A DNA stretch of 64,000 nt from Streptomyces sp. DH-12 (lineage in GTDB: Bacteria; Actinomycetota; Actinomycetes; Streptomycetales; Streptomycetaceae), in the NCBI RefSeq assembly GCF_002899455.1, contig NZ_PPFB01000001.1, positions 5,059,001-5,123,000 on the forward strand, read 5' to 3'. Position numbers and translations under genes: made by a program. Under the pieces are notes generated by a model. It was not told where the DNA came from and did no database searches. It saw only the letters and a program-made list of their open reading frames with translations. This document shows, in pieces, positions 11,096 to 38,455 of this stretch. Position 1 is the first letter of the stretch; every line of letters begins with the position of its first letter.

Positions 11096-11116
11096 CCGAG
11101 AAGCGCCCCACGCGCA

Positions 11117-11153
11117 CGAGAAGGGCCCGTTCCGTCGGAACGGGCCCTTCTCG
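11117..11153. terminator. Bidirectional terminator between obg and the acyltransferase gene
   Basis: A 17-bp perfect stem (11117-11133 with 11137-11153) with a 3-nt loop lies between convergent genes. Confidence 0.78.
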
Positions 11154-11166
11154 CTGTGGCCGGTGC

Positions 11167-13344
11167 TCAGGCTCCCGGGGTCCGGCTCAGGTCCGCCCCG
11201 AAGAGCCGCAGCAGCCGCTCCTCCACCACCGGGGTCAGGGCCTCGACGTAGGCGTCCGCCAGGTGGCCGAAGTCCCGGTACACCAGGGTGTTGCCCACCA
11301 CGACCGGGCAGGTGCCGGACGGGGCGCAGACCCAGTCGTAGGGGTCGATGACCGTCACGTCCTCGGCGGCCGCCGCCTCGCGGATCGCCTCGGTGACCGA
11401 GGGCTGCGGGTCGGCCTCGGACCGCTCGTTGGCGCACGCGTCGAGGTCGTCCGGGTGGGCGACCGCGCAGTCCACCGCGTTGTTCTTCGGCCAGGGGTTG
11501 TCCAGCAGCGTGAGCACCCGGGTGCGGCCCTGCTGGAGGATCCGGTACGTCTCGGCCTGGCCCTCGCCCCACTCGGCGGCGATGTCGCCCTCGCCCCACA
11601 GCTTCGCCGAGTTGGAACTGGAGGTGACGACCAGGTCGGGCTCCATCGCGCGGATCTTCTCGATGGTCACCTCACGCCACTCGTCGCAGGACGCGTACGG
11701 GCCGTTGTTGTACGCGATGGTGATCTGGGCGACCTTGCAGGCGTTCTTGGTGAACGAGTAGAGCTTCCAGCCGTGCTCGCGGGCGATGGCGTCGAAGGCC
11801 GGGAACCACTGGGCGATGTGCGAGTCGCCGAAGAGCACCACGGTGCGCTCGCCGTCCTTGTCGCCGTACAGGCACGGCTGCGTCTGCTTCTCCTCCGACA
11901 TGGTCAGCGCGCAGTCGTCGTCGTAGACCGCCGTCCGCTCGTACGCCACGTCGTGCACGCTCGGCGAGAGGTTGGACGGCATCTCCTCCGCCGGGTTCTG
12001 CAGCAGCCGGGTCAGCGCGGCCTGCGGGTCCGGCGCCTGGGCGATCGCCTCCTTGGTGTTCTGCTGCGCGCCGCCCGACGACAGGCTCGGCGGGAACTGC
12101 AGGGTGACCAGCGCGGCCGCCGCCGCGACCGCCGACAGACCCAGCCCCAGCGACAGGCCCCGGCCCGCGTGGGCCTTGAACGCCCGGTGGAACCGCATCG
12201 GGTCCTCGACCAGGTGCAGCGTCCCCCAGGCCAGCACGAGACCGCTCAGGGCGGCGATCAGCCGCAGCGGGCCCTCGTTCTCACCGAAGCCGAAGGCCGC
12301 GGGCACGATGACGATGAGCGGCCAGTGCCACAGGTACCAGGCGTAGGAGACCCCGCCGACCCACACGGCGGGCCGCAGCGACAGGAGGGCGCCCGCTCCG
12401 TAGCGGCCGCCCGCCGCGCCGCCGGCCAGCACGGCCGCCGCGCCGAGGACCGGGACGGCGGCGTTGTGGCCGGGGAAGACGGTGCTCTCGTCGAAGGCCA
12501 CCGCCGCGTAGGCGATGGCGGCCAGGCCCGCCCAGCTGAGGACCGCGGCGACCGGGCGGGGGATGTCGTTCAGCCGGTGCGCCACCAGCGCCAGCAGCGC
12601 GCCGACCGCCAGCTCCCAGATGCGGCCCTGCGAGCCGAAGTAGGCCCACGACGGGGACGTCTCGGTGAGGTGCAGGTTGACGGCGAAGGACGCGGCGGCC
12701 AGGGCCAGCAGCGGGATCGCCAGCAGGGCCCGGCGCCGGAGGATCTTCAGCGCCACGATCAGCACGACGGGCCAGATCAGGTAGAACTGCTCCTCCACCG
12801 CCAGCGACCAGAAGTGCTGGAACGGCGAGGGCGGCACGTCGGTGTGGAAGTAGTCGGTGCCCGAGTCGGCCAGCCGGAAGTTGACGACGTACCAGGCGGA
12901 GGCGATGGCGTCCTTGGCGTAGTCCGCGAACCGCAGCGGGCCCAGGAAGAGCCAGGACCCGGCCAGCGTCGCCAGGACGACCAGCGTGGAGGCGGGCAGC
13001 AGGCGCATGGCCCGGCGGGCGTAGAAGCGGCCCAGCGAGATCCGTCCCTCACGCTTCCACTCGCGGAGCATCAGCGAGGTGATGAGGAAGCCGGAGATGA
13101 CGAAGAAGACGTCCACGCCGACGAAACCGCCGGCCAGGGACGACACCCCCGCATGGGCGACCACCACCAGGGTGACCGCCACCGCGCGCAGTCCCTGGAT
13201 GTCCAGCCTCAGCCCGGCGCCGCCCGCCGCGGGGGCGGCGTTCCCGCCGGACGGCGGTGCGGGGGAGTCGCCCCGCGCCTGGGGGACGGACGGGGTGTCA
13301 TCTGCTGAAGGCCGCGGTGGGGACGCGAGATCGCGGGCGGACAC
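11167..13344 (-). CDS. OafA-type membrane acyltransferase with C-terminal SGNH domain (725 aa)
   Basis: The N-terminal half is an acyltransferase-3 membrane domain: LDIQGLRAVAVTLVVVAHAG with the catalytic-type His, FVGVDVFFVISGFLIT, RFYARRAMRLLPA and about ten helices. The C-terminal half is an extracytoplasmic SGNH domain: VVLFGDSHIAQWFPA (nucleophile Ser), KNAC, and a final DFGH matching the DxxH dyad. Such proteins O-acetylate cell-wall or exported glycans. The GTG at 13344 has AAGGAG 10 nt upstream; a longer version starting at 13407 lacks a good site. It is the first gene of the envelope island and may decorate the polymer made by its neighbours (inference). Confidence 0.9.
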   Translation of the reverse strand: MSARDLASPPRPSADDTPSVPQARGDSPAPPSGGNAAPAAGGAGLRLDIQGLRAVAVTLVVVAHAGVSSLAGGFVGVDVFFVISGFLITSLMLREWKREGRISLGRFYARRAMRLLPASTLVVLATLAGSWLFLGPLRFADYAKDAIASAWYVVNFRLADSGTDYFHTDVPPSPFQHFWSLAVEEQFYLIWPVVLIVALKILRRRALLAIPLLALAAASFAVNLHLTETSPSWAYFGSQGRIWELAVGALLALVAHRLNDIPRPVAAVLSWAGLAAIAYAAVAFDESTVFPGHNAAVPVLGAAAVLAGGAAGGRYGAGALLSLRPAVWVGGVSYAWYLWHWPLIVIVPAAFGFGENEGPLRLIAALSGLVLAWGTLHLVEDPMRFHRAFKAHAGRGLSLGLGLSAVAAAAALVTLQFPPSLSSGGAQQNTKEAIAQAPDPQAALTRLLQNPAEEMPSNLSPSVHDVAYERTAVYDDDCALTMSEEKQTQPCLYGDKDGERTVVLFGDSHIAQWFPAFDAIAREHGWKLYSFTKNACKVAQITIAYNNGPYASCDEWREVTIEKIRAMEPDLVVTSSSNSAKLWGEGDIAAEWGEGQAETYRILQQGRTRVLTLLDNPWPKNNAVDCAVAHPDDLDACANERSEADPQPSVTEAIREAAAAEDVTVIDPYDWVCAPSGTCPVVVGNTLVYRDFGHLADAYVEALTPVVEERLLRLFGADLSRTPGA

Positions 13345-13887
13345 CTTGGAAGTTCTCCTTGTTCGTGGAGCATGGAGCATCGGCGAGACCTGGGAAGTCT
13401 GCGACACGGTCCGGGGCCGGGTGCCTCCGGGACCTGCTGACGCCGGTGATCGACGCGGAGCCAGATGATCGAGCGTATCTCCGTCCGACCCCGGACCCGT
13501 CGCATCTTCCGCCGCATTGTCGTAACAAATGACTCAGGACGGTACGAAGGCGGCCCCCCGGGCCGGGACGTCCGCCCGGTCGGCGCACGGCGCCGAGGGC
13601 GACACGTCCGGCTTTCTCCCTGCTCGTACCGGTGATCGGCCGGAGAGGAGGCCACGTGGATGTTCCGGTCGGATTCCGTGTCCTTCGCGAGGGCGTCCCT
13701 CACCACGGCATCCATGACCGCCACGGCCTCGGCGGACTGCCCCTCGACGACGACCGCGTCGTCGAGCCGCCCGTGACCGTGCACGGCTCCGCGAGGCCGC
13801 GCGCAGTCCGGGGACGCGTCGGGATCCGCACACTCCCCGTCCGGAGCGTCCGCGCCCGTCCGTTCCGCCGGCCGCCCGGCTCCCCCC
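13345..13887. other. 543-nt gap; possible eroded coding stretch
   Basis: No family is recognised. On the minus strand from 13784, about 60 codons (DDAVVVEGQSAEAVAVMDAV...) have third positions almost all G or C and could be a gene remnant; the frame loses coding character by ~13600. The plus strand from 13655 is also open. The segment 13440-13540 is less GC-rich and probably holds the acyltransferase promoter, but no clean -35/-10 pair is seen. Confidence 0.3.
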
Positions 13888-14886
13888 TCAGACCAGCGTG
13901 GTCTGCTCCGACGGGCTGGGGGCGATGTCGGACTTCATCTCGGCCTCCAGGCGGTCGTACCGGGCCATCGTGCGCTGGAAGGCGCGGGTGGCGAGGAGGA
14001 GGCGGTAGACGACGAGCACCTCGAAGGCGAGGAGCAGGGCGCCCGCGGCGACCGTCGGCCAGAAGATCGAGTTGGCCAGCGGCGCGACGATGAAGATCGT
14101 CATCTGGAACTCGATGCCGCTGAACAGGTGGATGCGGATCCGGTGGCTGATGAGGAAGTCGCGCAGCCGCACATAGCCGGGGAGACGCGTGATGAACGTC
14201 TTCGCCGGGGAGACGACGTGCGCGGGGGCCGGCGCCTGGGCGGTGACCGCGGACGCCTCGCTGCCCGTCGGCTGGGCGGGGACCTTGGCGGTGCCCTTCA
14301 CCGGTGTGTCGTCGGCCTCGGAGTCCTCGTCGGAGCCGTTGTCCTGGGGCGTGGGGTCGATCAGCCCCAGTTCCGCGGCGCGCTCACGCTGGCGCCGCCG
14401 CATGTTCAGGCGGACCTTCCATATCTCGAGCGCGTCCATGTAGCGGAGCATGTCGAGGAACACCACGGCCACCGCGAGCCATATGTAGGTGACGTCCTCC
14501 GTCCGCTGGTACTGCCCGCCCATCAGGGCGACGGCGCAGACCAGCACGCGGACGCGGTCGAAGATGTAGTCGAGCCAGGCGCCGAACGCCGAGCCCTTCC
14601 CCGTCAGACGGGCGAGCTTCCCGTCCATGCAGTCCAGGATGAAGCTGACGTGATAGACGACGGCTCCGGCGATCAGCCACTGCCAGTCACCCTGGGCGAA
14701 GCAGGCCGCGGCCCCGATCCCCAGCACCAGGGCGGCCCAGGTGATCTGGTTCGGGGTCACCCGGGTCCACATGGCGGTCCACCGGACCAGGGGGGTGGCG
14801 ACGGGGTCGACCAGGAGAACGGTCCACCAGGCGTCTCGCTGCTTCTCCGTGAGGCGGCGGACTTCGGGGAGTGAAGGTACACGCAT
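13888..14886 (-). CDS. CDP-alcohol phosphatidyltransferase family membrane enzyme (332 aa)
   Basis: The signature DG(x2)AR(x8)G(x3)D(x3)D is complete: D88-G89, A92-R93, G102, D106, D110. These enzymes displace CMP from a CDP-alcohol onto a second alcohol inside the membrane. A ~60-residue acidic, Pro/Thr-rich insertion (QDNGSDEDSEADD onward) separates the catalytic helices from two to three further C-terminal helices; this is unusual compared with typical ~200-residue members. The chosen ATG is at 14886; a GTG at 14916 is also possible. The location beside Stealth and TagF-like genes points to a wall-polymer or phosphoglycan linkage rather than bulk phospholipid synthesis (inference). Confidence 0.88.
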   Translation of the reverse strand: MRVPSLPEVRRLTEKQRDAWWTVLLVDPVATPLVRWTAMWTRVTPNQITWAALVLGIGAAACFAQGDWQWLIAGAVVYHVSFILDCMDGKLARLTGKGSAFGAWLDYIFDRVRVLVCAVALMGGQYQRTEDVTYIWLAVAVVFLDMLRYMDALEIWKVRLNMRRRQRERAAELGLIDPTPQDNGSDEDSEADDTPVKGTAKVPAQPTGSEASAVTAQAPAPAHVVSPAKTFITRLPGYVRLRDFLISHRIRIHLFSGIEFQMTIFIVAPLANSIFWPTVAAGALLLAFEVLVVYRLLLATRAFQRTMARYDRLEAEMKSDIAPSPSEQTTLV

Positions 14887-15281
14887 GACCGTAAGTCTGC
14901 ATGCTCGCCCGAACACTCTGCTTCCAAACGCGAGTGTGTGCTACATCACGAAAGTGATCACCGGGTGAACGGGAACGGTCGGTGTCTCAAGAGGAAGGGA
15001 TATGTCCGAAGATTACGCTTGCGGGGGGTGTAAGTCCCGGAATTGACGGTCGCAAACACGAACGACGAGGGTGTGCGTTCCGCCGGTCGTGGCGGCCGAC
15101 GTCGTCGAACAGGAATGTGACCGCGTTGCTGTAAACTTCCCCCCTGCGGCTTGACCCTGGAGGGGCCCCGTGCGCTCCGCGTCTGGCGCCGTATGGGGGT
15201 GCAGCGCTCGTTGCCGCTGGTCGCCTTGATGCCTCCATCATGTAGGCCACGTCGGGACTCGCCGAAGGGTTTGGGATTGAA
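14887..15281. other. 395-nt divergent control region
   Basis: This separates the CDP-alcohol transferase (minus) from the Stealth operon (plus). A palindrome ATCAC-GAAA-GTGAT lies at 14945-14958, near the start of the minus gene. For the plus strand a TAAACT hexamer at 15132-15137 and two TTGACS boxes (15043, 15151) are present, but none pair at 16-19 nt. The leader to the Stealth start would be ~140 nt. Confidence 0.4.
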
Positions 15282-17015
15282 GTGAGTGTGCGTACCCGCA
15301 TCGGAAGCAGTCTGAAGTCGCGGACCAAGAGCGCGATGCAGGCGCAGAAGCGCCGGGCGTGGTTGTTGCGGGTGACACGGCAGCGGCAGGGCCTGTTGCG
15401 CTCCGACGCGGGTGTGCGCCAGGTGTCGTCCGGCAGTGATCCGTTGTGGGGGCGGGTGGTCGACTCGTTCACGGCGGCGGGTGCGGCGGCGGACAATCTG
15501 GGGCTGGTGGCGGACGCTCTGGAGCGTGCGGGGATCTCGTACTTCGTGGTGCCGGGTGTGTCGCGTACGGCGTGGGCGCTGGGGGTGCGTGAGTCGGATC
15601 GTGAGGCGTTCCTGGCGTCGATGCGGGAGTTGTACGCGGGGACGGTGGTGTTCGCGGCGCGTCCTCGTCCGGGTGGGGTGTCGGACTTCTCGTTGTTCGC
15701 GGACGAGGTGTGGCCGAAGTCGTTGTCGTCGGCTCCGGTGATGCGGTTCGGTGTGGTGCGTCTGGGTCCTGCGGGTCAGGTTCTGGGTGGTCCGCAGCTG
15801 GGCTGTGACGTGGAGTTCTGGCGGGACGGTGCGGAGCTGCTGACGGGTCCGCAGGCGGAGGCGGAGCTGGCGCGTGTGTCGCCGCAGGCCTCGGCCGATG
15901 TGCTGGCCGACTCCCTCGTCGCCCCCCGGCGCAACCGCATATCGGACGTCATGCCCACCAGCGAGCAGAAGTCCGCCAAGATCACCGTCCAGGGCCGCGA
16001 CTTCCCGACGTTCGCGCCGTTCACGATGACCACGGTGGAGGACGTGACGTTCCCCATCGACGTCGTCTACACCTGGGTCGACGGCGAGGACCCCGAGCTG
16101 CGCGCCAAGCGCCAGAGGTACAAGAGCGAGGGCGTCCCGGCGATCCTCGACAAGGAGACCAACGAGTCCCGGTACACCAGCCACGACGAGCTGAAGTACT
16201 CGCTGCGGTCGCTGGAGATGTACGCCGGCTTCGTGCGACACGTGTACATCGTCACCGACGGCCAGACCCCCGAGTGGCTGAACGCCGACGCGCCGGGTGT
16301 CACCGTGGTGGACCACAAGGACATCTTCCCCGAGGGCGTCCTGCCGGTGTTCAACTCGCACGCGATCGAGACGCGGCTGCACCACATCCCGGGCCTGTCG
16401 GACCACTACCTGTACTTCAACGACGACGTGTTCGTCGGCCGCAGCGTCACCCCGCAGCACTTCTTCTACGCCAACGGCATCGCCCGCATCCCGTTCTCGC
16501 CGCTCAAGGTCGGCGTCGGCCAGCCGCACGGCGGCGAGACCGCCACCAACTCGGCCGGCAAGAACGTGCGCCAGCTGCTGATGAAGGCCCACGACCGCTT
16601 CATCACGCACAACTTCATGCACACCCCGCTGCCGCAGGTGCGGTCCGTGCTGCAGGAGCTCGAGGAGATGTTCCCCGAGGAGGTCGGCCAGACCATGCGC
16701 TCGCGCTTCCGGTCGCCCGACGACATCGCCATGACCGCCTCGATGCACTACAACCACGCGTACATCACCGGCAAGGGCGTCCCGGGCAAGTTCCGCTTCC
16801 GGTACGTCAACATCAGCCGTGAGGACGCGGACCGCCGTCTCGAGGGCATCCGGACGAAGCGCAACTTCGACTTCTTCTGCCTCAACGACGTCGACGTGCC
16901 GCCGGAGCAGCGCGCCGAGGTCACGGCCCGCATGTTCTCCTTCCTGGAGGAGTACTTCCCCTTCCCGAGCTCCTTCGAGAAGGCACCTGAAAGCACGTCT
17001 TCCGGGACGCGTTGA
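15282..17015 (+). CDS. Stealth-family capsular/wall-polymer phosphotransferase, copy 1 (577 aa)
   Basis: All four Stealth regions are visible. CR1 IDVVYTWVDG is at residues 259-268. CR2 is SRYTSHDELKYSLRSLEMY followed by VYIVTDGQTPEWL. Next comes HYLYFNDDVFVG, then CR3 (ITHNFMHTPLPQVRSVL) and CR4 (FFCLNDVD). The family transfers hexose-1-phosphate units to make phosphodiester-linked polysaccharides and is homologous to the catalytic domain of animal GlcNAc-1-phosphotransferase. The N-terminal ~220 residues form the accessory domain. The start is GTG with a weak GAAGGG site. The stop overlaps the ATG of copy 2 (TGATG), so the two are translationally coupled. Codons from ~15380 to 15890 favour G and T at third positions, unlike the C-rich remainder. 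Confidence 0.93.
   Translation: MSVRTRIGSSLKSRTKSAMQAQKRRAWLLRVTRQRQGLLRSDAGVRQVSSGSDPLWGRVVDSFTAAGAAADNLGLVADALERAGISYFVVPGVSRTAWALGVRESDREAFLASMRELYAGTVVFAARPRPGGVSDFSLFADEVWPKSLSSAPVMRFGVVRLGPAGQVLGGPQLGCDVEFWRDGAELLTGPQAEAELARVSPQASADVLADSLVAPRRNRISDVMPTSEQKSAKITVQGRDFPTFAPFTMTTVEDVTFPIDVVYTWVDGEDPELRAKRQRYKSEGVPAILDKETNESRYTSHDELKYSLRSLEMYAGFVRHVYIVTDGQTPEWLNADAPGVTVVDHKDIFPEGVLPVFNSHAIETRLHHIPGLSDHYLYFNDDVFVGRSVTPQHFFYANGIARIPFSPLKVGVGQPHGGETATNSAGKNVRQLLMKAHDRFITHNFMHTPLPQVRSVLQELEEMFPEEVGQTMRSRFRSPDDIAMTASMHYNHAYITGKGVPGKFRFRYVNISREDADRRLEGIRTKRNFDFFCLNDVDVPPEQRAEVTARMFSFLEEYFPFPSSFEKAPESTSSGTR
15441..15938 (+). repeat. 498-nt intragenic repeat, copy A
   Basis: Identical to 17174-17671 except one base (A at 15843, G at 17576). 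It encodes the N-terminal accessory domain of Stealth copy 1. Flanking sequence diverges at once on both sides, while a second, slightly less perfect block follows at the same offset of 1733 nt (about 16164-16467). Confidence 0.95.
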
Positions 17016-18721
17016 TGGCACCGGGGTCGCGGCCGATCCGGAAGCTCGCGCGCAGGGGACTCGGCGTCGGACGGAAGGTGCGCGACCGGGCGTCGGCCGC
17101 GCGCCTGGACCGGCAGCGGCAGGCCGTGCTCGGCCCGGACGCGGGTGTGCGTCAGGCGTCGTTCCACGATCAGCCGTTGTGGGGGCGGGTGGTCGACTCG
17201 TTCACGGCGGCGGGTGCGGCGGCGGACAATCTGGGGCTGGTGGCGGACGCTCTGGAGCGTGCGGGGATCTCGTACTTCGTGGTGCCGGGTGTGTCGCGTA
17301 CGGCGTGGGCGCTGGGGGTGCGTGAGTCGGATCGTGAGGCGTTCCTGGCGTCGATGCGGGAGTTGTACGCGGGGACGGTGGTGTTCGCGGCGCGTCCTCG
17401 TCCGGGTGGGGTGTCGGACTTCTCGTTGTTCGCGGACGAGGTGTGGCCGAAGTCGTTGTCGTCGGCTCCGGTGATGCGGTTCGGTGTGGTGCGTCTGGGT
17501 CCTGCGGGTCAGGTTCTGGGTGGTCCGCAGCTGGGCTGTGACGTGGAGTTCTGGCGGGACGGTGCGGAGCTGCTGGCGGGTCCGCAGGCGGAGGCGGAGC
17601 TGGCGCGTGTGTCGCCGCAGGCCTCGGCCGATGTGCTGGCCGACTCCCTCGTCGCCCCCCGGCGCAACCGCGTCGCCGACGTGCTGCCGACCGCGGAGCA
17701 GCAGCCCGCGAAGGTCACGGTCGCCGGACGGGTCCACCCCACCTTCGCGCCGTTCACGGTGACCACGGTGGAGGACGTGACGTTCCCCATCGACGTCGTC
17801 TACACCTGGGTCGACGGCCAGGATCCCGAGCTGCGCGCCAAACGCCAGAAGTACAGGAGCGAGGGGGACGTCGGCATCGCGGCCCGCGAGGTGGGCGAGT
17901 CCCGGTACACCAGCCACGACGAGCTGAAGTACTCGCTGCGGTCGCTGGAGATGTACGCCGGCTTCGTGCGGCACGTGTACATCGTCACCGACGGCCAGAC
18001 CCCCGAGTGGCTGGACCCGGACGCGCCGGGTGTCACCGTGGTGGACCACAAGGACATCTTCCCCGAGGGCGTCCTGCCGGTGTTCAACTCGCACGCGATC
18101 GAGACGCGGCTGCACCACATCCCGGGCCTGTCGGACCACTACCTGTACTTCAACGACGACGTGTTCGTCGGCCGCAGCGTCACCCCGCAGCACTTCTTCC
18201 ACGCCAACGGCATCGCCCGCCTGCCCTTCTCCTCGTACCAGATCGGCGCCGGCGCCCCGCACCCGCAGGCCTCCGCCCCCAACTCGGCCGGGCGGAACGT
18301 GCGCCGGCTGCTGGAGGAGGCCTACGGGGTGTCCATCACCCACAAGTTCCTGCACACCCCGCACCCGCAGCGCCGGGACGTGCTGAACGACCTGGAGCGG
18401 GACTTCCCGGACGCGATCGGGCGGACCATGCGGTCGCGGTTCCGGTCCATCGAGGACGTGGCGCCGGCCACCTCCTTCCACCACCACCTGGCGCTGCTCA
18501 CCGGCCGCGCCGTCCCGGGGAAGTTCACGTACCGCTACGTCGACGTCGGCAAGGCCCACCTGGAGGAGCGGGTCGAGTCCCTCAAGGCGCGGCGCGGCTA
18601 CGACTTCTTCTGCCTGAACGACGTGGACACCGCCCCCGAGCGGCGGGAGTACGTGCGTTCCTACGTCCGCGACTTCCTGGAGTGGTACTTCCCGTACCCG
18701 AGCTCCTTCGAGCGCGCCTGA
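17015..18721 (+). CDS. Stealth-family phosphotransferase, copy 2 (568 aa)
   Basis: A tandem paralogue of the preceding gene with the same Stealth regions: IDVVYTWVDG, SRYTSHDELKYSLRSLEMY, HYLYFNDDVFVG, ITHKFLHTPHPQRRDVL and FFCLNDVD. The chosen start is the ATG at 17015, which overlaps the upstream TGA; a TTG at 17012 would add one residue. The N-terminal domain DNA is nearly identical to copy 1, whereas the acceptor-side C-terminal third differs clearly (for instance SSYQIGAGAPHPQASAPN against SPLKVGVGQPHGGETATN). That suggests two enzymes using the same donor but different acceptors (inference). The phosphodiester glycosidase gene follows 372 nt downstream. Confidence 0.93.
   Translation: MAPGSRPIRKLARRGLGVGRKVRDRASAARLDRQRQAVLGPDAGVRQASFHDQPLWGRVVDSFTAAGAAADNLGLVADALERAGISYFVVPGVSRTAWALGVRESDREAFLASMRELYAGTVVFAARPRPGGVSDFSLFADEVWPKSLSSAPVMRFGVVRLGPAGQVLGGPQLGCDVEFWRDGAELLAGPQAEAELARVSPQASADVLADSLVAPRRNRVADVLPTAEQQPAKVTVAGRVHPTFAPFTVTTVEDVTFPIDVVYTWVDGQDPELRAKRQKYRSEGDVGIAAREVGESRYTSHDELKYSLRSLEMYAGFVRHVYIVTDGQTPEWLDPDAPGVTVVDHKDIFPEGVLPVFNSHAIETRLHHIPGLSDHYLYFNDDVFVGRSVTPQHFFHANGIARLPFSSYQIGAGAPHPQASAPNSAGRNVRRLLEEAYGVSITHKFLHTPHPQRRDVLNDLERDFPDAIGRTMRSRFRSIEDVAPATSFHHHLALLTGRAVPGKFTYRYVDVGKAHLEERVESLKARRGYDFFCLNDVDTAPERREYVRSYVRDFLEWYFPYPSSFERA
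17174..17671 (+). repeat. 498-nt intragenic repeat, copy B
   Basis: Partner of 15441-15938 at an offset of 1733 nt with a single mismatch. Its third-codon composition (G/T-rich) switches back to the C-rich host pattern near its 3' end, as in copy A. Confidence 0.95.
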
Positions 18722-19093
18722 CGGTGGCGCCCCCACTTCGGGCGGGTCCGGTGTGTTGTCGTGCGGCGGCCCGCCGCACCCTTCCGGCCGGGTCCGCGGA
18801 CTCCCCGGTGCGACGTGGTCCGCGAGGCCGAAGGGCCTGAGACGCCGACCGTTCTCGCCGCCCCCGCCAGGTGTCGGAGCCGCGGCGGGGACGGTTGCGC
18901 CACCCCCGCCGCAGGACTGACACGAGTCACTCATATGATCTTGGCTCTGTCGCGAAATCTTCACGCTCCCGTCATGTGGAGAAGTGCTGCCCGGATCCCT
19001 TCGGTGGCGGCCGTCTTTCACCGTTGTCGCGTCGACCGTGTGCGGTCGAGAGGGCGCGGTCCCCCATTCGTTCCTTTTCTCCAGTTGGTGCAG
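18722..19093 (+). other. 372-nt gap with hairpin and -10-like box
   Basis: A perfect hairpin (GTGCGGCG/CGCCGCAC, 18761-18779) without T tract may end the Stealth transcript. TATGAT at 18934-18939 is a good -10 hexamer without a clear -35; it would start transcripts ~150 nt before the glycosidase gene. The frame of that gene is open through the gap but lacks recognisable protein. Confidence 0.4.
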
Positions 19094-20713
19094 ATGATCA
19101 AGAGACTGTGCGGCGCGGGCGTCGCCATGGCCGTCGGCGTCGCCGTCATGGTGAACGTGCCGTCCCTGCAGGCGTCCTCGGCCGCGAAGCAGGGGGAGAA
19201 CGCCCTGCCGCTGGGCCCCGCCGGTCTGAAGGAGACCCGCACCACGCGGACCGTGCAGCCCGGCGTCACCCTCACCCGCATCGTCCGCGGTGCCAAGGAC
19301 CCGGCGCTTCGCTGGACGGTCGAGGTCGCCGTTCCGGGAGGTGACACCTCACCCGACCCCGACGCGCCGCTGACCGTCCTGAAGGACCGGCCGAGCGCCA
19401 CCGAGTGGGCGGCCGACCTGGAGCTGGACGGTTTCCGGGCCCGGGCCGAGCAGGTGACAACACCGAAGGCGGCCGATTACGCCGGAGGCACACTGGGATG
19501 GCGGGTCCGCGTCGGATCGTTCGACTCGCAGTCCGCCGCGACGTCCGAGCGTGCACGGCTGAAGGCAGCCGGGTACGCGGGGACCGTCGTGTACACGGGC
19601 TGGGACGGTGACGTCGCGGCCGGAGGCCCGTGGCGCGTCGACGTGCTCACCATCGACCCGAGCCGGTTCCGCGGGAGTCTCCGGGCGTCGTACGGCCCGG
19701 ACCTGGAGAACAGCGAGACGACCAGCGAGCTGGCGGACGAGGCCGGTGCCGTCGCGGCGGTCAACGCCGGGTTCTTCGTCTTCGATCCCGACGCGGGCGC
19801 GCCCGGGGATCCCGCCGGCACGGGCGTGTACGACGGGCGCCTGCTGAGTGAGCCGGTGAGCGGGCGTCCCAGTCTGGTGGTCCACGACGACGGGCGGCGG
19901 ACGGAGATCACCCGGTACACGTGGGAGGGACGTGTCGTCGGAGGGGACGCCTCGCTGCGTCTGAGCGGCCTCAACCGGGTGCCGGGTCTGATCCGGAACT
20001 GCGGCGGATCCGTGGACGACGCCCCGACCTCCCGGCCGCTGCACGACGTGACCTGCACCAACGCCGACGAACTCGTCGCCTTCACGCCCGACTACGGGCA
20101 GCGCACCCCGGAGGGCGAAGGGCTCGAGGCCGTGCTGGACGCCCAGGACCGGGTCGTCGAACTGCGCTCACCGCGCGGCGGACCGCTCCCGTCGGGGGGC
20201 AGCTCGATCCAGGCGACCGGGCGCCGCGTCGGCGAGCTGTCGGGCCTCGCGGGGATCGGTGAGAACCTGAGCCTGAGGACGGCCCTGCTGGACCCGCGCG
20301 GGCGCCGGGTCTCGCCCTCCCCCGGGACCGACGTCCTGAACGCCGGCCCGGAACTCGTCCGCGACGGACGGCTCCACATCACCCCCGCCGCCGACGGCAT
20401 GGTGCGCCGGGACGACCCGAGCTTCTACTACGGCTGGGCGCACAAGCGCAATCCGCGCACGCTGGCCGGGGTGGACGCGGCCGGCCGCACCGTGCTGGTC
20501 ACCGCCCACGGACGCAGCACCGACGCCCTCGGGCTCAGCATCGGCGAGAGCGCCGAGGTCGCCAAGACGCTCGGGCTGCGCGACGCGGTCAGCCTCGACG
20601 GCGGCGGCTCGACCACGATGGTGGTCGACGGCGCGGTGCTCACCGCGCCGTCCGACCCCACCGACGAACGCCCCGTCGGCGACGCCCTGCTGATCCTGCC
20701 CCGCAGGGACTGA
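19094..20713 (+). CDS. Secreted SPOR-domain phosphodiester glycosidase (NAGPA-like, 539 aa)
   Basis: The N-terminus MIKRLCGAGVAMAVGVAVMV is a signal peptide or anchor. A SPOR-like domain (GWRVRVGSFDSQSAATSE to GPWRVDV, residues ~135-190), which binds peptidoglycan glycan strands, is followed by the NAGPA/DUF2233 domain: VAAVNAGFF, GRPSLVVHDDG, DVLNAGPELVRDG and the end motif DAVSLDGGGSTTMVVDG. The family removes a sugar from a phosphodiester-linked glycan; the animal member uncovers mannose-6-phosphate. The ATG at 19094 was chosen for the signal peptide; its ribosome site is weak. Position directly after two Stealth genes suggests it trims or remodels their product outside the cell (inference). 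Confidence 0.9.
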   Translation: MIKRLCGAGVAMAVGVAVMVNVPSLQASSAAKQGENALPLGPAGLKETRTTRTVQPGVTLTRIVRGAKDPALRWTVEVAVPGGDTSPDPDAPLTVLKDRPSATEWAADLELDGFRARAEQVTTPKAADYAGGTLGWRVRVGSFDSQSAATSERARLKAAGYAGTVVYTGWDGDVAAGGPWRVDVLTIDPSRFRGSLRASYGPDLENSETTSELADEAGAVAAVNAGFFVFDPDAGAPGDPAGTGVYDGRLLSEPVSGRPSLVVHDDGRRTEITRYTWEGRVVGGDASLRLSGLNRVPGLIRNCGGSVDDAPTSRPLHDVTCTNADELVAFTPDYGQRTPEGEGLEAVLDAQDRVVELRSPRGGPLPSGGSSIQATGRRVGELSGLAGIGENLSLRTALLDPRGRRVSPSPGTDVLNAGPELVRDGRLHITPAADGMVRRDDPSFYYGWAHKRNPRTLAGVDAAGRTVLVTAHGRSTDALGLSIGESAEVAKTLGLRDAVSLDGGGSTTMVVDGAVLTAPSDPTDERPVGDALLILPRRD

Positions 20714-20732
20714 CCCGCCGGCCGACGCGTCG

Positions 20733-22868
20733 CTAGGCCGGCTGCCCGGGTCGTTCCGACGCGGACCTGGCGGGCGGCGTGAGCCGCGCGGGCGCCGGGG
20801 GCGCCTGTCGTGGACCGGGGACTCCCGCGGCCGTCCGCCCGGTCATCCGTGCCCTGTGCGTCCCGGCCGCCGCGCACAGGGCGCGTACGGCCCCGGCGAA
20901 GCGTTCCTGGGACGAGGGCTCGGCCGGGCCCAGCAGTTCCAGTCTCAGGTCCGCGCGCGCCTGCGCCAGACCGTCCTTCTCCGGATGCCGGACCGCTTCC
21001 AGCAGGGCCGGCACCCCCGTCGCGTCCGGGGTCAGGACGGTCGCCGCCGTCACCGTCGGGAAGGCCGCGCGGAACGCGGCCTCGGACATCCCGCCCGTGT
21101 TGGCCACCGCGTACGGCTTGCCGCTCGCCAGGAAGTCGCTGATCACGCTCGACACGTCGCTGATCAGCAGGTCGGCGACGTTGAAGCAGGAGTACAGCGA
21201 AGGGCGGGCGTCGACGACGACCTGGTGCTCCCACTCCGGCAGCGACGCCCAGTACGCCGCCTCCCAGGCCGCCGTCGCCCGCGCCACGGCCTCCGCGCGG
21301 CCCGGCGGGGGAGCGGACTGGACGAGCATCCGCTCGGCCTGGTCGGCGCCCTCCCGGAACTCCGCGGCGGTCAGCCGGGTCAGCTCGGCGGTGCGGGCGG
21401 CCAGCTCCTTCGACGGGGCGGGACGCGAGCCGGAGCGGGCCCGGTTGGCCGCGCGGATCAGCTCCCGGACACGGCGGTCCGCGGCGCCCGCCCGCGGGTC
21501 CACCGAACCGGTCAGCGGGTGCGGCTTGTACAGCAGACGCACCCCCGGGTCCGCGAGCAGCGCCCGCACCAGGTTCTCGCCGGCCGCGATCACCGAGGTG
21601 TTGCCCGGGTTGCCGTCCCAGCCCTCCCAGGTCGGCGCGTACAGCACGGTGGTGTACGCGCCCGTGGGCGGCCCCGCGTACGGCCGCACCGCGTCCAGCT
21701 GCGGGCGGCCGATCTCCACCACGTCCTTGTCCTCGACCCCCACCTCGGCCAGCGCGTACCGCTCGCGCGCCGCCGGACCCGCGACCCACACCTCGTCGTA
21801 CGCCTTCGCGTACGGGTTGCACGAGGACAGCTTGTCGCTCTCCCCGTGGTTGACGAAGGCGTGCTTGATGGTGGGGATGCGCAGCACCTGCGAGGTCTTG
21901 CCCGAGTTGGACGGGTGGATGAGCACCTGGAGCGTGGAGTGCTCCAGGCGCATCAGGGTGGGCACCTTCGGCAGGCACACGATCGGGATGTCGGTCGCCG
22001 GGATCCGCGACACCATGGACCGCTCGCGCAGCACGATGAGCGGCCGGCCGTCGAGCCGGGCCAGCGGCTCCAGCCACATCCCCGCCTGGTAGACGGAGGA
22101 CGGCCCGCCGGAGAAGTACAGCCCCACCGTGGGCCGGTACTCGGCCAGCCACGCGTCGAACCAGGCGAGCACCTCCTGCTCGCCCGCCGGCCGCCGCCCC
22201 GGCAGCAGCCGCAGCGACAGCGTCACCAGTCCGCCCAGCGCGAGCGCCAGCGACAGCGCGATCCCGGCCGCCGCGCACCGCGTGTCGTCCGTCACCGCCG
22301 TCGCCGTCAGCCCGGCCGTCGCGGGCAGCCCGAACACCAGCAGCCGGTGCCCGGGGCGGCGCAGCAGCGCGGGCGGGGCGGAGGTGAGGCGCAGCGCGGA
22401 GGCGTCGATGTTGCGGGTCACCACGGGCAGGGTGCGGGTGCGGCGCACCAGCACGGACACCGCCTGGATGGCGCAGTGCAGGGCGTAGCAGAGCAGCAGA
22501 CCGGCGAGCAGCGGCGCGTACTGCGTCTCACGCTGCTGCTCGCCGAGCCGCAGCAGGCCCACCACCAGCAGCAGGTCGCGCAGCACATGGCGGACGGTGA
22601 CGTCCGCGTGCGCCTTGGCGAACAGCGCCGGCACGCCCCGCTGCCAGCGGTACAGCACGCCCTCGGCGGCCAGCGAGAGGGCGGTGGCGGCCAGCAGCAG
22701 CGGCACGTGCGGGGCCAGCGCCGCCACGGCCTGCGCCGCATAGGCGCCGGCCAGGACGGACGCCGTCAGCACCGTGGTGAGCGCGGGGCGGCCGGGCAGG
22801 CGGGGCAGCGGGAGGCGGGGCCGGCGGATTCCCGCCCGGAACCGCCGACGGGACGTGGGTCGGGACAC
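20733..22868 (-). CDS. CDP-glycerol:polyglycerophosphate transferase-like polymerase (TagF/TagB family, 711 aa)
   Basis: The N-terminal ~200 residues contain five to seven hydrophobic helices. The C-terminal ~470 residues form a GT-B-type Glyphos_transf domain with NHGESDKLS, YDEVWVAGPAARERY, VLYAPTWEGWDG, LYKPHP and the acidic DLLISDVSSVISDFLASGKP. Such enzymes polymerise glycerol- or ribitol-phosphate, or related polyol-phosphate, onto a lipid-linked primer. The GTG at 22868 has GGAG 8 nt upstream; the frame is open further upstream but without coding character. The gene converges with the glycosidase gene, leaving only 19 nt between stops. The substrate cannot be told from sequence. Confidence 0.88.
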   Translation of the reverse strand: MSRPTSRRRFRAGIRRPRLPLPRLPGRPALTTVLTASVLAGAYAAQAVAALAPHVPLLLAATALSLAAEGVLYRWQRGVPALFAKAHADVTVRHVLRDLLLVVGLLRLGEQQRETQYAPLLAGLLLCYALHCAIQAVSVLVRRTRTLPVVTRNIDASALRLTSAPPALLRRPGHRLLVFGLPATAGLTATAVTDDTRCAAAGIALSLALALGGLVTLSLRLLPGRRPAGEQEVLAWFDAWLAEYRPTVGLYFSGGPSSVYQAGMWLEPLARLDGRPLIVLRERSMVSRIPATDIPIVCLPKVPTLMRLEHSTLQVLIHPSNSGKTSQVLRIPTIKHAFVNHGESDKLSSCNPYAKAYDEVWVAGPAARERYALAEVGVEDKDVVEIGRPQLDAVRPYAGPPTGAYTTVLYAPTWEGWDGNPGNTSVIAAGENLVRALLADPGVRLLYKPHPLTGSVDPRAGAADRRVRELIRAANRARSGSRPAPSKELAARTAELTRLTAAEFREGADQAERMLVQSAPPPGRAEAVARATAAWEAAYWASLPEWEHQVVVDARPSLYSCFNVADLLISDVSSVISDFLASGKPYAVANTGGMSEAAFRAAFPTVTAATVLTPDATGVPALLEAVRHPEKDGLAQARADLRLELLGPAEPSSQERFAGAVRALCAAAGTHRARMTGRTAAGVPGPRQAPPAPARLTPPARSASERPGQPA

Positions 22869-23075
22869 TGCGGTCGCTCCAGGGTCGTGAGGGACGTGCG
22901 CTGGGGTTAACGGCCGTCGCCCTCCGGACGACACGCGTGTGACGCGCGGTCCTCGGCCCGGTGCCGTCGCACAGGTGCCCGCACGCCGGGTCGCACGGAC
23001 GGGGTGCGGCGTCGCGTGCCCGGAGCGGCCGTGTCCGGGGGCTGGACCGCCGAGCGTCCTTCGATGCGCTTCGCG

Positions 23076-28204: not shown

Positions 28205-28920
28205 ATGCCAGTGGAGTTCCTGACCGATGAGCAGGCGGCGTCGTACGGCAAGCTCAACGAGGAGCCGACCCGGCCGGAGCTGGAGCGGTTCTTCTTCTTG
28301 GACGACGAGGACCGCAAGCTGATCGGGAGGCGGCGCGGGGACCACAGTCGGCTCGGGTTCGCTCTCCAGATGTGCACGGTGCGCTACATCGGCCGCTTCC
28401 TCCCGGATGACCCGCTCGACGTGCCGTGGGTCGTGGTCGAGCACCTGGCCGCGCAGCTCGGCATCGAGGACATCTCGTGTGTGAAGCGGTACACCGAACG
28501 CAAGCCGACGGCGTACGAGCACGCGTGGGAGATCCGGGACGCCTACGAGTACCGCGAGTACGAGGACGCGGAGTGGCCGCGCCGGTTCCGTACCTTCCTG
28601 CACGGGCGGGCGTGGACGCACGCCGAGGGGCCGGTGGCGCTGTTCAACCAGGCGGCGGGCTGGCTGCGCCGGCACCGGGTGCTGCTGCCCGGGGTGAGCG
28701 TGTCGGCCCGGCAGGTGTCGGAGGCCCGGAAGGGCGCGGAGAAGCGGCTGCACGCCACCGCGGCGGGCGCCGCCCGCCGCGCCGACCCGGCGCTGCCCGG
28801 GGAACTGGTGGTGACGCTCAAGACGCCGGAGGGCTCGCGGTTCTCGGAGCTGGAGCGGCTGCGCCGGCCGCCGACGCGGGCGACCGGGACGGCGTTCGCC
28901 CGCGCGCTGGAGCGGGTGGT
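28205..28920 (+). pseudogene. Truncated Tn3-family transposase (N-terminal ~238 aa)
   Basis: The start MPVEFLTDEQAASYGKLNEE and following text (LGFALQMCTVRYIGRFL, RRHRVLLPGVSVSARQV, ELERLRRPP) match the DUF4158 N-terminal region of TnpA, which reads the inverted repeats. A full protein is ~1000 residues with a DDE domain; here homology-like sequence stops near ERV at ~28920 and unrelated sequence continues to a stop at 29005. The catalytic part is gone, so the element cannot move by itself. Confidence 0.85.
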
Positions 28921-28950
28921 GACGTGCCTTCCTCGGCGGTCGCATGCCGA

Positions 28951-29688
28951 TCAGCCGAGGGCGGGTCGGCCGCCCATCGCGCTGAGTGTGGCGCCGTTGA
29001 CGTAGCTGGCATCGGGGGAGGCCATGAAGGCGATGGCTCCGGCGATTTCCTCGGGGTCGGCGAGGCGCTGGAGAGCGACGGCCTGTCCTGCGGATTCGAA
29101 GGCGTCGCCGTAGGCGGCGGTGCCCTCCGTGCGGGTGGGACCGGCGGCGACGGCGTTGACGCGGACTCCGGCGGGGCCGTACTCGGCGGCCCAGACGCGG
29201 GTGAGGGATTCCAGGGCGGCTTTGGTGGCTCCGTAGATGCCGCTGCCGAGGCCGGGGGTGTCGGCAGCGCCGCTGCTGACGTTGATGATGGCGCCGTGTC
29301 CGCGTTCGGTCATGCCGGGGGCGAGGGCCTGGACGAGGAGGTAGGGGGCGCGGAGGTTGACGGCGATGTGGGCGTCGAAGGTGGCGGGGGTGGTGTCGAC
29401 GGTGCGGGCGAAGTGGAAGATCCCCGCGTTGTTGACCAGGATGTCGACTTCTCCGGCCCGGTCGGCCAAGGCGGTGACCTGTGCGGGATCAGTCAGGTCG
29501 GCGGGCTCGAAGCGGGCTTTGGCGCCGAGGGCTTCGATACGCTGGAGGGTGTCGGTGGCGCGCTGCTCGTTGCGGCCGTGGACGATGATGCTGGCGCCGC
29601 GGGCGGCCAGAGCCTGAGCGGTGGCCCGTCCGATGCCGGCGGTGGCGCCGGTGACCAGAGCGGTCTGCTGAGCGAGGTCGTGGTGCAT
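28951..29688 (-). CDS. Short-chain dehydrogenase/reductase (245 aa)
   Basis: Classical SDR features are complete: TGATAGIG cofactor motif near residue 14, NNAG near 90, NVSSG Ser, and YGATK as the YxxxK catalytic pair, ending in DASYVNGATLSAMGG. It oxidises or reduces a hydroxyl/keto group with NAD(P)H; the substrate is unknown. This is the only cargo enzyme left intact. Its start lies 44 nt after the original stop of the methyltransferase gene, so it was probably the last gene of an exporter-methyltransferase-SDR operon divergent from the XRE-cupin regulator. Confidence 0.9.
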   Translation of the reverse strand: MHHDLAQQTALVTGATAGIGRATAQALAARGASIIVHGRNEQRATDTLQRIEALGAKARFEPADLTDPAQVTALADRAGEVDILVNNAGIFHFARTVDTTPATFDAHIAVNLRAPYLLVQALAPGMTERGHGAIINVSSGAADTPGLGSGIYGATKAALESLTRVWAAEYGPAGVRVNAVAAGPTRTEGTAAYGDAFESAGQAVALQRLADPEEIAGAIAFMASPDASYVNGATLSAMGGRPALG

Positions 29689-29732
29689 GGTCGTGCTCGT
29701 TCCTGTGCGGTGTCGGCTGTTTGCGGGCGGGG

Positions 29733-30374
29733 CTAATGGGTGCGCTGGGCGGTCAGGACGGTGTCGTGGATGGTGACCTGTCGACCGTCGGGTGTGGTGG
29801 CGGTGCGGGGGCGGGCGGTGCGGGTGACGGGCTTTCAGGCGTGTGCGGGGAGGTCGTCGATGAGGTCGTCGGCGGTGTAGAAGATGTCGGGTTCGGGCGG
29901 GCGGGGCATGGCGGTGTCCAGGTCGCTGGGGTGGTGGCCGATGATCACCAGATGTCCGTCGCGGGCGACTCGTGAGGCGAGGGCGGCGAAGACGGCGAGG
30001 CGCAGGGGTGAGGGGAAGTGGAGGAAGGAGGCGGTGACGAGGTCGTAGCAGGGGGCGCCGTCATCGTGGGGCGTCCAGGTGCGGATGTCGGCCTTCTGCC
30101 AGGTGAGGCGGCCGGCCAGTGCGGCCGGGGTGTGGTCGGCTGCGCGGGCGAGGGCCTGGGCGGAGAAGTCGGTGCCGGTGACCTGCCAGCCTGCCTGGGC
30201 CAGCCAGAGGGCGTCGGCGCCCTCGCCGCATCCCGCCTCCAGCGCCGTACCCGGCACGAGCGCGCTTGCCGCCTCGACGAGAGCGGGGTTGGGCTGTCCG
30301 CTCCACAAGGGGTTGGGCTGGTGGTAGCGCTGGTCCCAGAACGCGGCTTCGTAGCGCGGATCGGTGTCACTCAT
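29733..30374 (-). pseudogene. Class I SAM-dependent methyltransferase with in-frame stop
   Basis: The open part (30374 to 29835, 179 aa) has ALEAGCGEGADALWLAQAGW (SAM motif I), TGTDFSAQAL and the following YDLVTASFLHF. It ends at a TGA at 29835-29837. Reading on in the same frame gives 33 more coding-like residues (KPVTRTARPRTATTPDGRQV...) to a TAG at 29733, which looks like the proper C-terminal beta strands of this fold. TGG to TGA is the simplest explanation. The ATG at 30374 has GGAG 8 nt upstream. The shortened protein may or may not be active. Confidence 0.75.
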
Positions 30375-31158
30375 CAGGAGTTCTCCAGGGTGTGGTCGGG
30401 GGGCTGGGGTGATCATGCGGGGGGTGTCGGGGGCGGGGATGCGGCGTGCCCAGAGACCGAACAGGAGCAGGCCGGCCAGGAGGAAGGCGGCGGTCGCGGG
30501 CAGGGCCGCTCCCAGACCGCCCTCCAGGCCGCCGGTGGCGGACAGCACGCCGGCCAGGACGGCCAGGCCCATGCCGCCGCCGAGTTGCTGCAGGCCTTGG
30601 GTGAGACTGGCGGCGGCGCCGATGTGCTCGGTGGGGGCCTGGTGCATGATCATGGCGGTGGCGGGGGCGAAAGTGGCGCCGGCGCCCGCGCCAAGCAGGA
30701 TCGAGGGCAGCAGCACGGTGACGATCGAGGTGTGCGCGTCGGCGTCGGCAGCCACCAGCGCCGTCCAGGCGATGCCCAGCACCAGCCCGGCAAGTCCCGT
30801 GCTGCCGATGACGCGCTCGCCCAGGCGCGGCAGCAGCCAGGGGGTGAGCTGGCTGGTGGCGATCAGGCCGGCGGTGAAGGGCACCAGGGCAAGGCCGGTC
30901 TGGATCGGGGTGAAGCCCAAGCACCTGCTGGGTGAGCAGGGTGGTGAGGAACAGGAAGCCGACCTGCCCGGCCGGGACGACCAGCATCGCCAGCAGCGGG
31001 CCCGAGCTGCGCATGGAGGAGAAGAACGCCAGCGGCATCACCGAGATCACCGCAGCCAGCGCCACCGGCCCACGCCGCACCGCCACCGCCACCGCCGCGC
31101 CGGGCGTAGCCGCGGCCCGCGGCGCCTCCGGCGCCTCGGTCCTGCTGTCGTTGCTCAT
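30375..31158 (-). pseudogene. MFS drug-exporter (DHA2-type) remnant
   Basis: The start MSNDSRTEAPEAP at 31158 (GGAG upstream) leads into one hydrophobic helix and then PLAFFSSMRSSGPLLAM, which in DHA2 exporters belongs to the middle of the protein; the first half of the transporter appears deleted. At about 30919 an extra T in GTGCTTGGGCTTC shifts the frame: QQVLG continues as FTPIQTGLALVPFTAG in the next frame. That second frame carries the C-terminal helices and runs without a stop into the methyltransferase frame. Two lesions make function unlikely. Confidence 0.8.
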
Positions 31159-31256: not shown

Positions 31257-31263
31257 TGGAAGG

Positions 31264-36045: not shown

Positions 36046-36684
36046 ATGGGAGAGCAGGACATGCCTACCGGCCCCGGCACCGGCCCGGGCGAGCGGGGCA
36101 AGCGCCGTCTGGGCGTCATGGGCGGCACTTTCGACCCGATCCACCACGGGCACCTCGTGGCGGCCAGCGAGGTGGCCGCGCAGTTCCACCTCGACGAGGT
36201 GGTCTTCGTCCCCACCGGCCAGCCGTGGCAGAAGAGCCACCGCGCGGTCTCGCCCGCCGAGGACCGTTACCTGATGACGGTCATCGCCACCGCCGAGAAC
36301 CCGCAGTTCTCGGTGAGCCGCATCGACATCGACCGCGGCGGACCCACCTACACCGTGGACACCCTGCGCGACCTCGACGCGCTCAACCCGGACACGGACC
36401 TGTTCTTCATCACCGGCGCCGACGCCCTCGCCCAGATCCTGACCTGGCGCGACAGCGAGGAACTGTTCTCCCTGGCACACTTCATCGGCGTGACCCGGCC
36501 CGGCCACCACCTGACCGACGCCGGTCTGCCCGAGGGCGGTGTCTCGCTCGTGGAGGTCCCGGCCCTCGCCATCTCCTCCACGGACTGCCGTGCGAGAGTC
36601 GCCAAGGGAGACCCCGTCTGGTACCTGGTGCCGGACGGTGTCGTGCGCTACATCGCCAAGCGTCAGCTGTATCGCGGCGAGTGA
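36046..36684 (+). CDS. nadD: Nicotinate-nucleotide adenylyltransferase
   Basis: NAD synthesis step that adenylates nicotinate mononucleotide. Motifs: [20 protein letters not shown] (GxFxPxHxGH), [15 protein letters not shown], and [11 protein letters not shown] (ISSTxxR). The length of 212 residues is normal. The start is ambiguous: ATG at 36046 has TAGGGT ending 8 nt before it (leaderless pattern), while ATG at 36061 has GGAGAG 6 nt before it. The LCP gene follows after 16 nt and rsfS after that, a common actinobacterial order. Confidence 0.95.
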
Positions 36685-36700
36685 GCCGAGAGGGGCACCG

Positions 36701-38455
36701 GTGAACGACGGATACGACGCGGGGTACGGCGACGGGGGCCCGTACGAGCTCGTCGGCTACGACGAGTACGGCCGGCCGGTCTACCGCCAGGCCGCCGACC
36801 AGCAGACGCAGCAGGCCCAGCAGTACGACCCCTACGGGCAGCAGGGGCAGCAGGGGCAGCAGGGTTACGGCTACGACCCGTACGCCGCGGGCGGCCACCA
36901 GCAGCAGTCGTACGACCCGTACGGGAACGGCGGCGCCCCCGTGCCCCCGCAGCAGCAGCCGCAGGATCCCTCCTACGGCTCCTACGACTACGACGCCTAC
37001 CAGCAGCAGCCCGCCCACGACCCCTACGGACAGGGCGCCGGCACCGGACAGCAGCCCCGGGTGACCGAGCAGACGGCGTACATACCGGAGCAGTCCGGCC
37101 ACTCCACGGAGCGGACCGCGCACATCCCGCAGCAGTCCGGCCCGGTGGACGACGGGCCCGACGGCTCCGAGCCGGCCCCCGAGTACCGCACCGAGCAGTT
37201 CGCCTTCGTCGAGGAGCCCGACGACGACTCCGAGGACGTCATCGACTGGCTCAAGTTCACCGAGAACCGCACCGAGCGCCGCGAGGAGGCCCGGCGCCGC
37301 GCCCGCAGCCGGATCATCGCCCTCACCGTGGTGCTCGCGCTGGTCGTCGCCGGCGGCGTCGGCTACCTCTGGTACGCCGGGAAGCTGCCCGGACTCTCCG
37401 GCTCCGGCACGGGCGCCGGCACCACCACCGCCGCGGGCGCGCAGAAGCGGGACGTGCTCGTCGTCCACCTGCACGACACCGAGAACGGCGGCACCTCCAC
37501 CGCGCTGCTCGTCGACAACACCACCACCCGGCAGGGCACCACGGTGCTGCTGCCCAACTCCCTCGCCCTCACCGCCGAGGACGGCACCACCACCACGCTC
37601 GCCAAGTCCGTCGAGGACGACGGCTCCGAGGGCACCAGGACCGCCCTCGACACCGTCCTCGGCACCGACATCGAGGGCACCTGGCGGCTGGACACCCCGT
37701 TCCTGCTCACCCTCGTCGACCTGGTCGGCAACATCGAGGTCGACACCGACACCGACGTGCCCGACCCGGACGCCAAGAGGAAGGGCGAGGCGCCGCTGGT
37801 CAGGAAGGGCAAGGGCCAGACCCTCGGCGGCAAGGCGGCCGTCGCCTACGCCACCCACCGCGCCCCGGGCGAGACCCAGAACGCCCAGCTGGAGCGGTTC
37901 GGCCAGGTGCTGCACGGCGTGCTGCGCAAGATGACCTCCGACCCGGACGCCGCCACGGTCACCGTCCAGACCCTCGGCCAGATCATCGAGCCGCCGCTGA
38001 CCGACGCGGACCTCGGCGCCTTCCTCGCGGAGCTCTCCGACCTCGCCAAGGGCGGCGACCACCGCACGACGCTGCTCCCCGTCGAGGAGGACGGCACGCT
38101 CACCGCCGAGACCAGCGACAGCGTGGTCCAGGACGTCCTCGGCGGCACCGCCAAGAGCCCCGACCGGGACGCCGCGGTCACCGTCTCCGTGCGCAACGCC
38201 ACCGGCGACAAGGACACCACCGAGAAGGCCCGGGTGGTGCTCCTCAACGGCGGCTTCACCTTCCTGGAGGGCGGCACCGCCGGCTCCGCCGAGGCCACCT
38301 CCGAGGTCGTCTACGCCGACCCCGCGGAGAAGGAGAACGCCACCGAGGTCGCCAAGACCCTGGGCCTGCCCGCCGACGCCGTCACCAAGGGCGAGATCCC
38401 CGGCAACGCGCGCGTGGCGGTGGTCCTCGGCCAGGACTACGACCCCGGCTCGTAG
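36701..38455 (+). CDS. LCP (LytR-CpsA-Psr) family protein with LytR_C domain (584 aa)
   Basis: A ~200-residue cytoplasmic tail rich in Gln, Tyr, Gly and Pro (repeated YDPYG, QQGQQGQQG) precedes one transmembrane helix (IIALTVVLALVVAGGVGYLWY) and an extracytoplasmic LCP-like domain (DVLVVHLHDTENGGTSTALLV, GTWRLDTPFLLTLVDLVG, GKAAVAYATHRAPGETQNAQLERFGQVL), then a LytR_C-type domain (VSVRNATGDKDTTEKARVVL). LCP enzymes transfer phosphate-linked polymers from lipid carriers to peptidoglycan. Position after nadD and before rsfS matches S. coelicolor SCO2578/PdtA, reported to attach a polydiglycosylphosphate wall polymer (recalled). The GTG at 36701 follows GAGAGGGG. Confidence 0.9.
   Translation: MNDGYDAGYGDGGPYELVGYDEYGRPVYRQAADQQTQQAQQYDPYGQQGQQGQQGYGYDPYAAGGHQQQSYDPYGNGGAPVPPQQQPQDPSYGSYDYDAYQQQPAHDPYGQGAGTGQQPRVTEQTAYIPEQSGHSTERTAHIPQQSGPVDDGPDGSEPAPEYRTEQFAFVEEPDDDSEDVIDWLKFTENRTERREEARRRARSRIIALTVVLALVVAGGVGYLWYAGKLPGLSGSGTGAGTTTAAGAQKRDVLVVHLHDTENGGTSTALLVDNTTTRQGTTVLLPNSLALTAEDGTTTTLAKSVEDDGSEGTRTALDTVLGTDIEGTWRLDTPFLLTLVDLVGNIEVDTDTDVPDPDAKRKGEAPLVRKGKGQTLGGKAAVAYATHRAPGETQNAQLERFGQVLHGVLRKMTSDPDAATVTVQTLGQIIEPPLTDADLGAFLAELSDLAKGGDHRTTLLPVEEDGTLTAETSDSVVQDVLGGTAKSPDRDAAVTVSVRNATGDKDTTEKARVVLLNGGFTFLEGGTAGSAEATSEVVYADPAEKENATEVAKTLGLPADAVTKGEIPGNARVAVVLGQDYDPGS

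Follow-up and report, generated by a model that had tools for sequence, protein, structure and literature searches.

In humans, GNPTAB makes a sugar-phosphate-sugar link, GlcNAc-P-6-mannose, and NAGPA, the uncovering enzyme, opens it, a cut that in animals unmasks a terminal phosphate. The catalytic part of GNPTAB, a GlcNAc-1-phosphotransferase (GNPT), has homologues in the bacterial Stealth proteins, which include the capsule hexose-1-phosphate transferases of Neisseria and CpsY of Mycobacterium tuberculosis; hexose-1-phosphate transferases of this type make phosphodiester-bridged polymers (PMC5974469). In Streptomyces coelicolor, polydiglycosylphosphate (PDP) has the repeat -6)-alpha-Gal-(1-6)-alpha-GlcNAc-(1-P- and carries alpha-GlcNAc-1-P-6-hexose links (PMC7831098, PMC11481543). 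LCP enzymes join PDP to peptidoglycan via alpha-GlcNAc-1-P, and the ligase needed for PDP is PdtA (SCO2578), an LCP protein encoded next to nadD (PMC7831098). The link within PDP belongs to the type that GNPTAB makes and NAGPA opens. To our knowledge, no wall-polymer trimming or releasing enzyme has been characterised in Streptomyces.

The window considered here, that is, the whole stretch of 64,000 nucleotides analysed from Streptomyces sp. DH-12, holds the same two catalytic families, by sequence and predicted fold, as neighbours (Table 1). Unlike the human pair, the Streptomyces Stealth proteins would be cytoplasmic and the NAGPA homologue would lie outside the membrane, at the wall, where it carries a SPOR domain; a substrate common to the two is putative. 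Upstream of the Stealth genes are those for the OafA-like protein and the CDP-alcohol phosphatidyltransferase, and downstream is the TagF-like gene, which converges on NAGPA-SPOR 20 bp past the stop codon of the latter, followed by proB and proA and, further along, by nadD and the gene for the LCP/LytR_C protein. These surroundings resemble those of PDP and PdtA in S. coelicolor, with nadD-LCP near proBA and obg, and the LCP/LytR_C protein is likely the counterpart of PdtA, the window strain's own polymer being putative. Between the proA-side genes and nadD (window 28205-36000), a gene of the transposase type (DUF4158) and what looks like an MFS-methyltransferase frame suggest that a mobile element was inserted into DNA that is otherwise conserved.

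Table 1. Features of the Stealth/NAGPA-SPOR locus and its surroundings, in window coordinates
Feature	Position	Strand	Description and basis
OafA-like membrane O-acyltransferase with SGNH domain	11167..13407	-	Same cassette; PF01757 + PF19040
CDP-alcohol phosphatidyltransferase	13888..14916	-	Same cassette; PF01066; position kept in relatives
Stealth A, predicted hexose-1-phosphate transferase	15282..17015	+	577 aa, CR1-CR4; Pfam, solved homologues, predicted fold
Stealth B, predicted second hexose-1-phosphate transferase	17012..18721	+	569 aa; Pfam
Intergenic region Stealth B / NAGPA-SPOR	18722..19093	.	372 bp
NAGPA-SPOR, exported phosphodiester-glycosidase homologue	19094..20713	+	539 aa; signal peptide, SPOR, NAGPA; Pfam, solved homologues, predicted fold
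TagF-like CDP-polyol phosphotransferase	20733..22900 (start approximate)	-	Weak PF04464 match; conserved in cassette
LCP + LytR_C protein beside nadD	36539..38455	+	PF13399; PF03816 just below cut-off

Both Stealth proteins, the sole members of their family in the genome, contain CR1, CR2, CR3 and CR4 in order, each above the Pfam cut-off (CR2 at E 2e-43), and among solved proteins they best match M. tuberculosis CpsY and the human, zebrafish and fly GlcNAc-1-phosphotransferases. Comparison of the AlphaFold model of Stealth A with CpsY (8j2n; TM 0.93, target length) and with 9bgf (E 6e-22) places the GT-A-like catalytic fold of CpsY/GNPT in this protein. While CR1-CR4 and the catalytic fold are thus shared with CpsY and the Neisseria transferases, the window pair differs from these in standing in tandem, in the N-terminal extension of approximately 250 residues on each protein and in the lack of a separate glycosyltransferase gene in the cassette. 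The 4-bp overlap between the end of Stealth A and the start of Stealth B implies translational coupling. The motif CDxEFW is invariant in the N-terminal regions of the two proteins (window 15282-16030 and 17012-17760), and the fold of these regions, predicted with confidence, was not clearly covered by any solved structure listed in a fold search with the model; in Stealth A, the domain without a known fold spans approximately aa 54-213. Near-identical DNA blocks join the two genes (15441-15920 with 17174-17653, and 16161-16460 with 17894-18193), covering this domain and part of the catalytic domain. Across aa 54-213, A and B share 88-99.8 % DNA identity within a species and the mean identity between species is 88 %, whereas the flanks of the domain show the opposite pattern. 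Judged from these identities, the blocks are homogenised inside each species by ongoing gene conversion, which was not seen in the distant tandem Stealth pairs examined. In one close relative (G146), Stealth A (L061 11775-13504) has no single readable frame and matches in two pieces, which is either a frameshift or an assembly error.

The start of NAGPA-SPOR, at first set at 18761, is most likely the ATG at 19094, which gives a protein of the length in Table 1 with a signal peptide read from its N-terminal sequence. Pfam assigns a NAGPA domain (PF09992; 7.7e-31, 108 bits against a cut-off of 25) and a SPOR domain (PF05036; 4.3e-8, 33.8 bits against a cut-off of 21), and the solved homologues are 6ozd, 6pku and 3ohg. 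The AlphaFold model matches the animal uncovering enzymes (6pki at E 1e-12, 6pku at E 6e-11) as well as BACOVA_00430, its SPOR part has a fold match to CwlC (1x60), and its full length matches Burkholderia BPSS2145 (6ozd), a protein of the same length and overall fold at 32 % identity. The DGGGS and NPRT motifs typical of the family are kept among 15 relatives. An earlier note on this DNA had claimed two Stealth genes homologous to the catalytic part of GNPT and, directly after them, an exported glycosidase homologous to NAGPA with a peptidoglycan-binding SPOR domain. The Stealth assignment is borne out by CR1-CR4 and the AlphaFold match to GNPT/CpsY, the NAGPA assignment by PF09992 and the match to solved uncovering enzymes, and the predicted export and wall binding agree with the signal peptide and PF05036. 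The position has to be qualified: NAGPA-SPOR is the next gene, but a start near 19094 leaves the gap listed in Table 1.

Approximately 170 bp of that gap, immediately upstream of NAGPA, is conserved among the relatives carrying the gene. A 15-bp terminator-like hairpin lies between the genes at the filled site of S. griseoincarnatus (L073; z -4.66), and one is found in the same region of the empty site of S. werraensis (L083; z -3.5), while the corresponding region of the window itself folds no better than shuffled sequence. Because of the gap and the strong hairpin in a relative, NAGPA-SPOR is likely a transcription unit of its own. Control by a PHO box was considered and rejected, the best match (9/14) equalling the median of background windows.

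The explanation that fits best, and to which we would give somewhat less than an even chance, is that NAGPA-SPOR hydrolyses a Stealth-built wall polymer and that the locus is one strain-variable version of a wall-glycopolymer cassette between obg and proB. Here, Stealth A and B would transfer sugar-1-phosphate units in the cytoplasm, building glycosyl-phosphate links into a polymer; after export, this polymer would be joined to peptidoglycan, the PdtA-like LCP protein being the probable ligase. NAGPA-SPOR would be secreted, held by SPOR at denuded peptidoglycan, and would hydrolyse glycosyl-1-phosphodiester bonds of the polymer, so that the chain is shortened, cut or turned over and phosphomonoester ends are left. 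Applied to a chain, the uncovering reaction would do more than expose a terminal phosphate: it would break the backbone, or detach the polymer if the GlcNAc-1-P-MurNAc link were hit. The enzyme would be an optional, separately expressed accessory. The domains, predicted folds, export signal, locus and distribution on which this account draws were observed, and from knowledge of the families we infer the activities, the substrate and the order of events.

A distinct possibility, though one held well short of even, is that NAGPA-SPOR is an independent secreted hydrolase for an unrelated substrate (e.g. glycosyl phosphodiesters of foreign or environmental origin) and that a spare copy of its gene landed in an island of wall genes by chance and is now being lost. 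The restriction of the adjacency to one Streptomyces clade, with its losses, agrees with this. In a survey of 393 Streptomyces genomes, with relatives counted at E <= 1e-20, 144 encoded a relative of Stealth and 99 one of NAGPA, yet the window genome, G245 and G272 alone had NAGPA-SPOR beside Stealth, the named carriers of the adjacency being S. althioticus, S. griseoincarnatus (G245) and strain CHD11 (G272). The same cassette is present without NAGPA in S. cellulosae, S. werraensis and S. pseudogriseolus, and NAGPA is also missing there in G146; S. werraensis, like S. althioticus, is among the near-identical relatives of the window strain, and tblastn found no NAGPA remnant at the empty sites. 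The NAGPA copies of the carriers form one clade, CHD11 falls outside the rest in the host-gene tree, and one gain followed by about three to four losses fits best, repeated loss being indicated by the empty site in four close relatives with the same cassette. A gene lost so often is not required for making the polymer, and the survey together with those empty sites rules out NAGPA as a general part of the Stealth locus. By chance alone, approximately 0.27 genomes with the adjacency would be expected in Streptomyces, and the adjacency in this genus is by itself not significant. Judged by the earlier note's own criterion, whether the Stealth-NAGPA adjacency is confined to this strain, it extends beyond the strain, but within Streptomyces it is nearly private to one clade and was lost there repeatedly.

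Additional features of the gene agree with an unrelated substrate. NAGPA-SPOR has its own upstream region and hairpin, a second NAGPA copy (a paralogue at 72 %) resides elsewhere in the genome, and its usual neighbour is an esterase rather than Stealth, a secreted PF00756 protein being encoded directly downstream in 15 of 21 loci. This two-gene unit (L144 7723-10578 and 14 other loci) is conserved in many Streptomyces, although its surroundings otherwise differ, and may encode two hydrolases acting on one acylated phosphodiester polymer. Arrival of NAGPA together with the esterase does not apply in the window, where the next gene is TagF-like instead. Set against the unrelated-substrate explanation are the SPOR domain, which points to the organism's own peptidoglycan, and the reading frame, which is intact in all four species and under purifying selection (dN/dS 0.2-0.6).

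Two further results, one from Nocardiopsis and one on co-occurrence, speak against an unrelated substrate. The 40 Nocardiopsis genomes examined contain 27 NAGPA loci, of which four are no more than 10 kb from Stealth (0.10 expected), independently of the Streptomyces neighbourhood. By their coordinates, NAGPA and Stealth are directly adjacent and convergent in one of these genomes (G906; approximately 1.2 kb start to start), while in Nocardiopsis sp. FR4 NAGPA is near a second cassette, in which Stealth A and Stealth B are accompanied by OafA, GalE and a TagF fragment. Two of the four loci carry a different, larger type of NAGPA and may represent one event. Counted as events, there are four in two genera against approximately 0.37 expected (p ~6e-4, assuming random placement). 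Within Streptomyces, NAGPA-SPOR and Stealth co-occur beyond what phylogeny accounts for: when Stealth presence was simulated on a 117-species tree regardless of NAGPA, the observed log odds (1.44, against 0 +/- 0.52 expected) was reached in 0.35 % of runs (p = 0.0035). The specificity of this signal is limited because a single gene underlies the tree, carriers are enriched in the sample, and NAGPA homologues of other types, in a simpler test, are also associated with Stealth, albeit more weakly. No further Stealth genome with an adjoining NAGPA was found in a phylum-wide sample, nor was a paper on bacterial Stealth-NAGPA neighbourhoods found in the open literature.

It is unlikely that NAGPA-SPOR is instead a polymer-releasing enzyme, sent to bare glycan by SPOR, that cuts the common link between polymer and peptidoglycan (alpha-GlcNAc-1-P-6-MurNAc) and not Stealth-made repeats: LCP attachment of PDP via alpha-GlcNAc-1-P (PMC7831098) provides a bond of the chemical kind found in GlcNAc-P-6-Man, SPOR is present, and such an enzyme could occur with or without Stealth, which agrees with the seven of 28 NAGPA-SPOR species without detectable Stealth, but its enrichment next to Stealth would not be predicted, and a relative occurs in Burkholderia. 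Burkholderia lacks wall teichoic acid.

Hydrolysis of a Stealth-built polymer thus draws its case from the Stealth, NAGPA and SPOR domains and folds, the conserved motifs, the signal peptide, the intact frames under purifying selection, the wall-polymer genes on both sides, the PdtA-like LCP gene with nadD, the Nocardiopsis proximity, the co-occurrence and the matching PDP link. Weighing against it are the single-clade event with its losses, the NAGPA-SPOR species without Stealth, the esterase neighbour, the likely separate transcription, the weak specificity and the Burkholderia NAGPA-SPOR. Support is likewise partial for the make-and-trim pathway put forward in the earlier note, the chemistry of which fits PDP and the neighbourhood and co-occurrence of which exceed chance over two genera, but which has to contend with a clade-private adjacency, losses, a different usual neighbour and probable separate transcription; a shared Stealth-NAGPA pathway is plausible.

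The setting of the pair is itself variable. The obg-proB interval (window 11096-22900; L164-L280) spans between 0.1 and 14.2 kb in 92 genomes and is longer in 14, and Stealth, GT4-Stealth fusion, GT2-TagF and TagF-like genes are exchanged between species at this site, which appears to be a hypervariable wall-glycopolymer island in Streptomyces. One genome (G352) encodes near obg a protein of 942 aa in which a GT4 glycosyltransferase is fused to Stealth (L170:5253-8078), a single-protein candidate for making a chain in which glycosidic and phosphodiester links alternate, as they do in PDP. The island may be a surface-diversity locus of the type that umbrella toxins read (PMC13274773, where the locus is a different one), and obg-proB is a place in which to seek the surface variation read by umbrella toxins and phages. 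Tentatively, a glycosyl-phosphate wall polymer of Actinobacteria may pass through an extracellular make-and-cut cycle that uses the enzyme families of animal mannose-6-phosphate tagging, NAGPA-SPOR trimming or releasing the polymer. If NAGPA-SPOR does act on wall polymer, it would serve in the turnover or release of glycosyl-phosphate polymers in actinobacteria, and the locus would be a bacterial counterpart of the lysosomal tagging pair.
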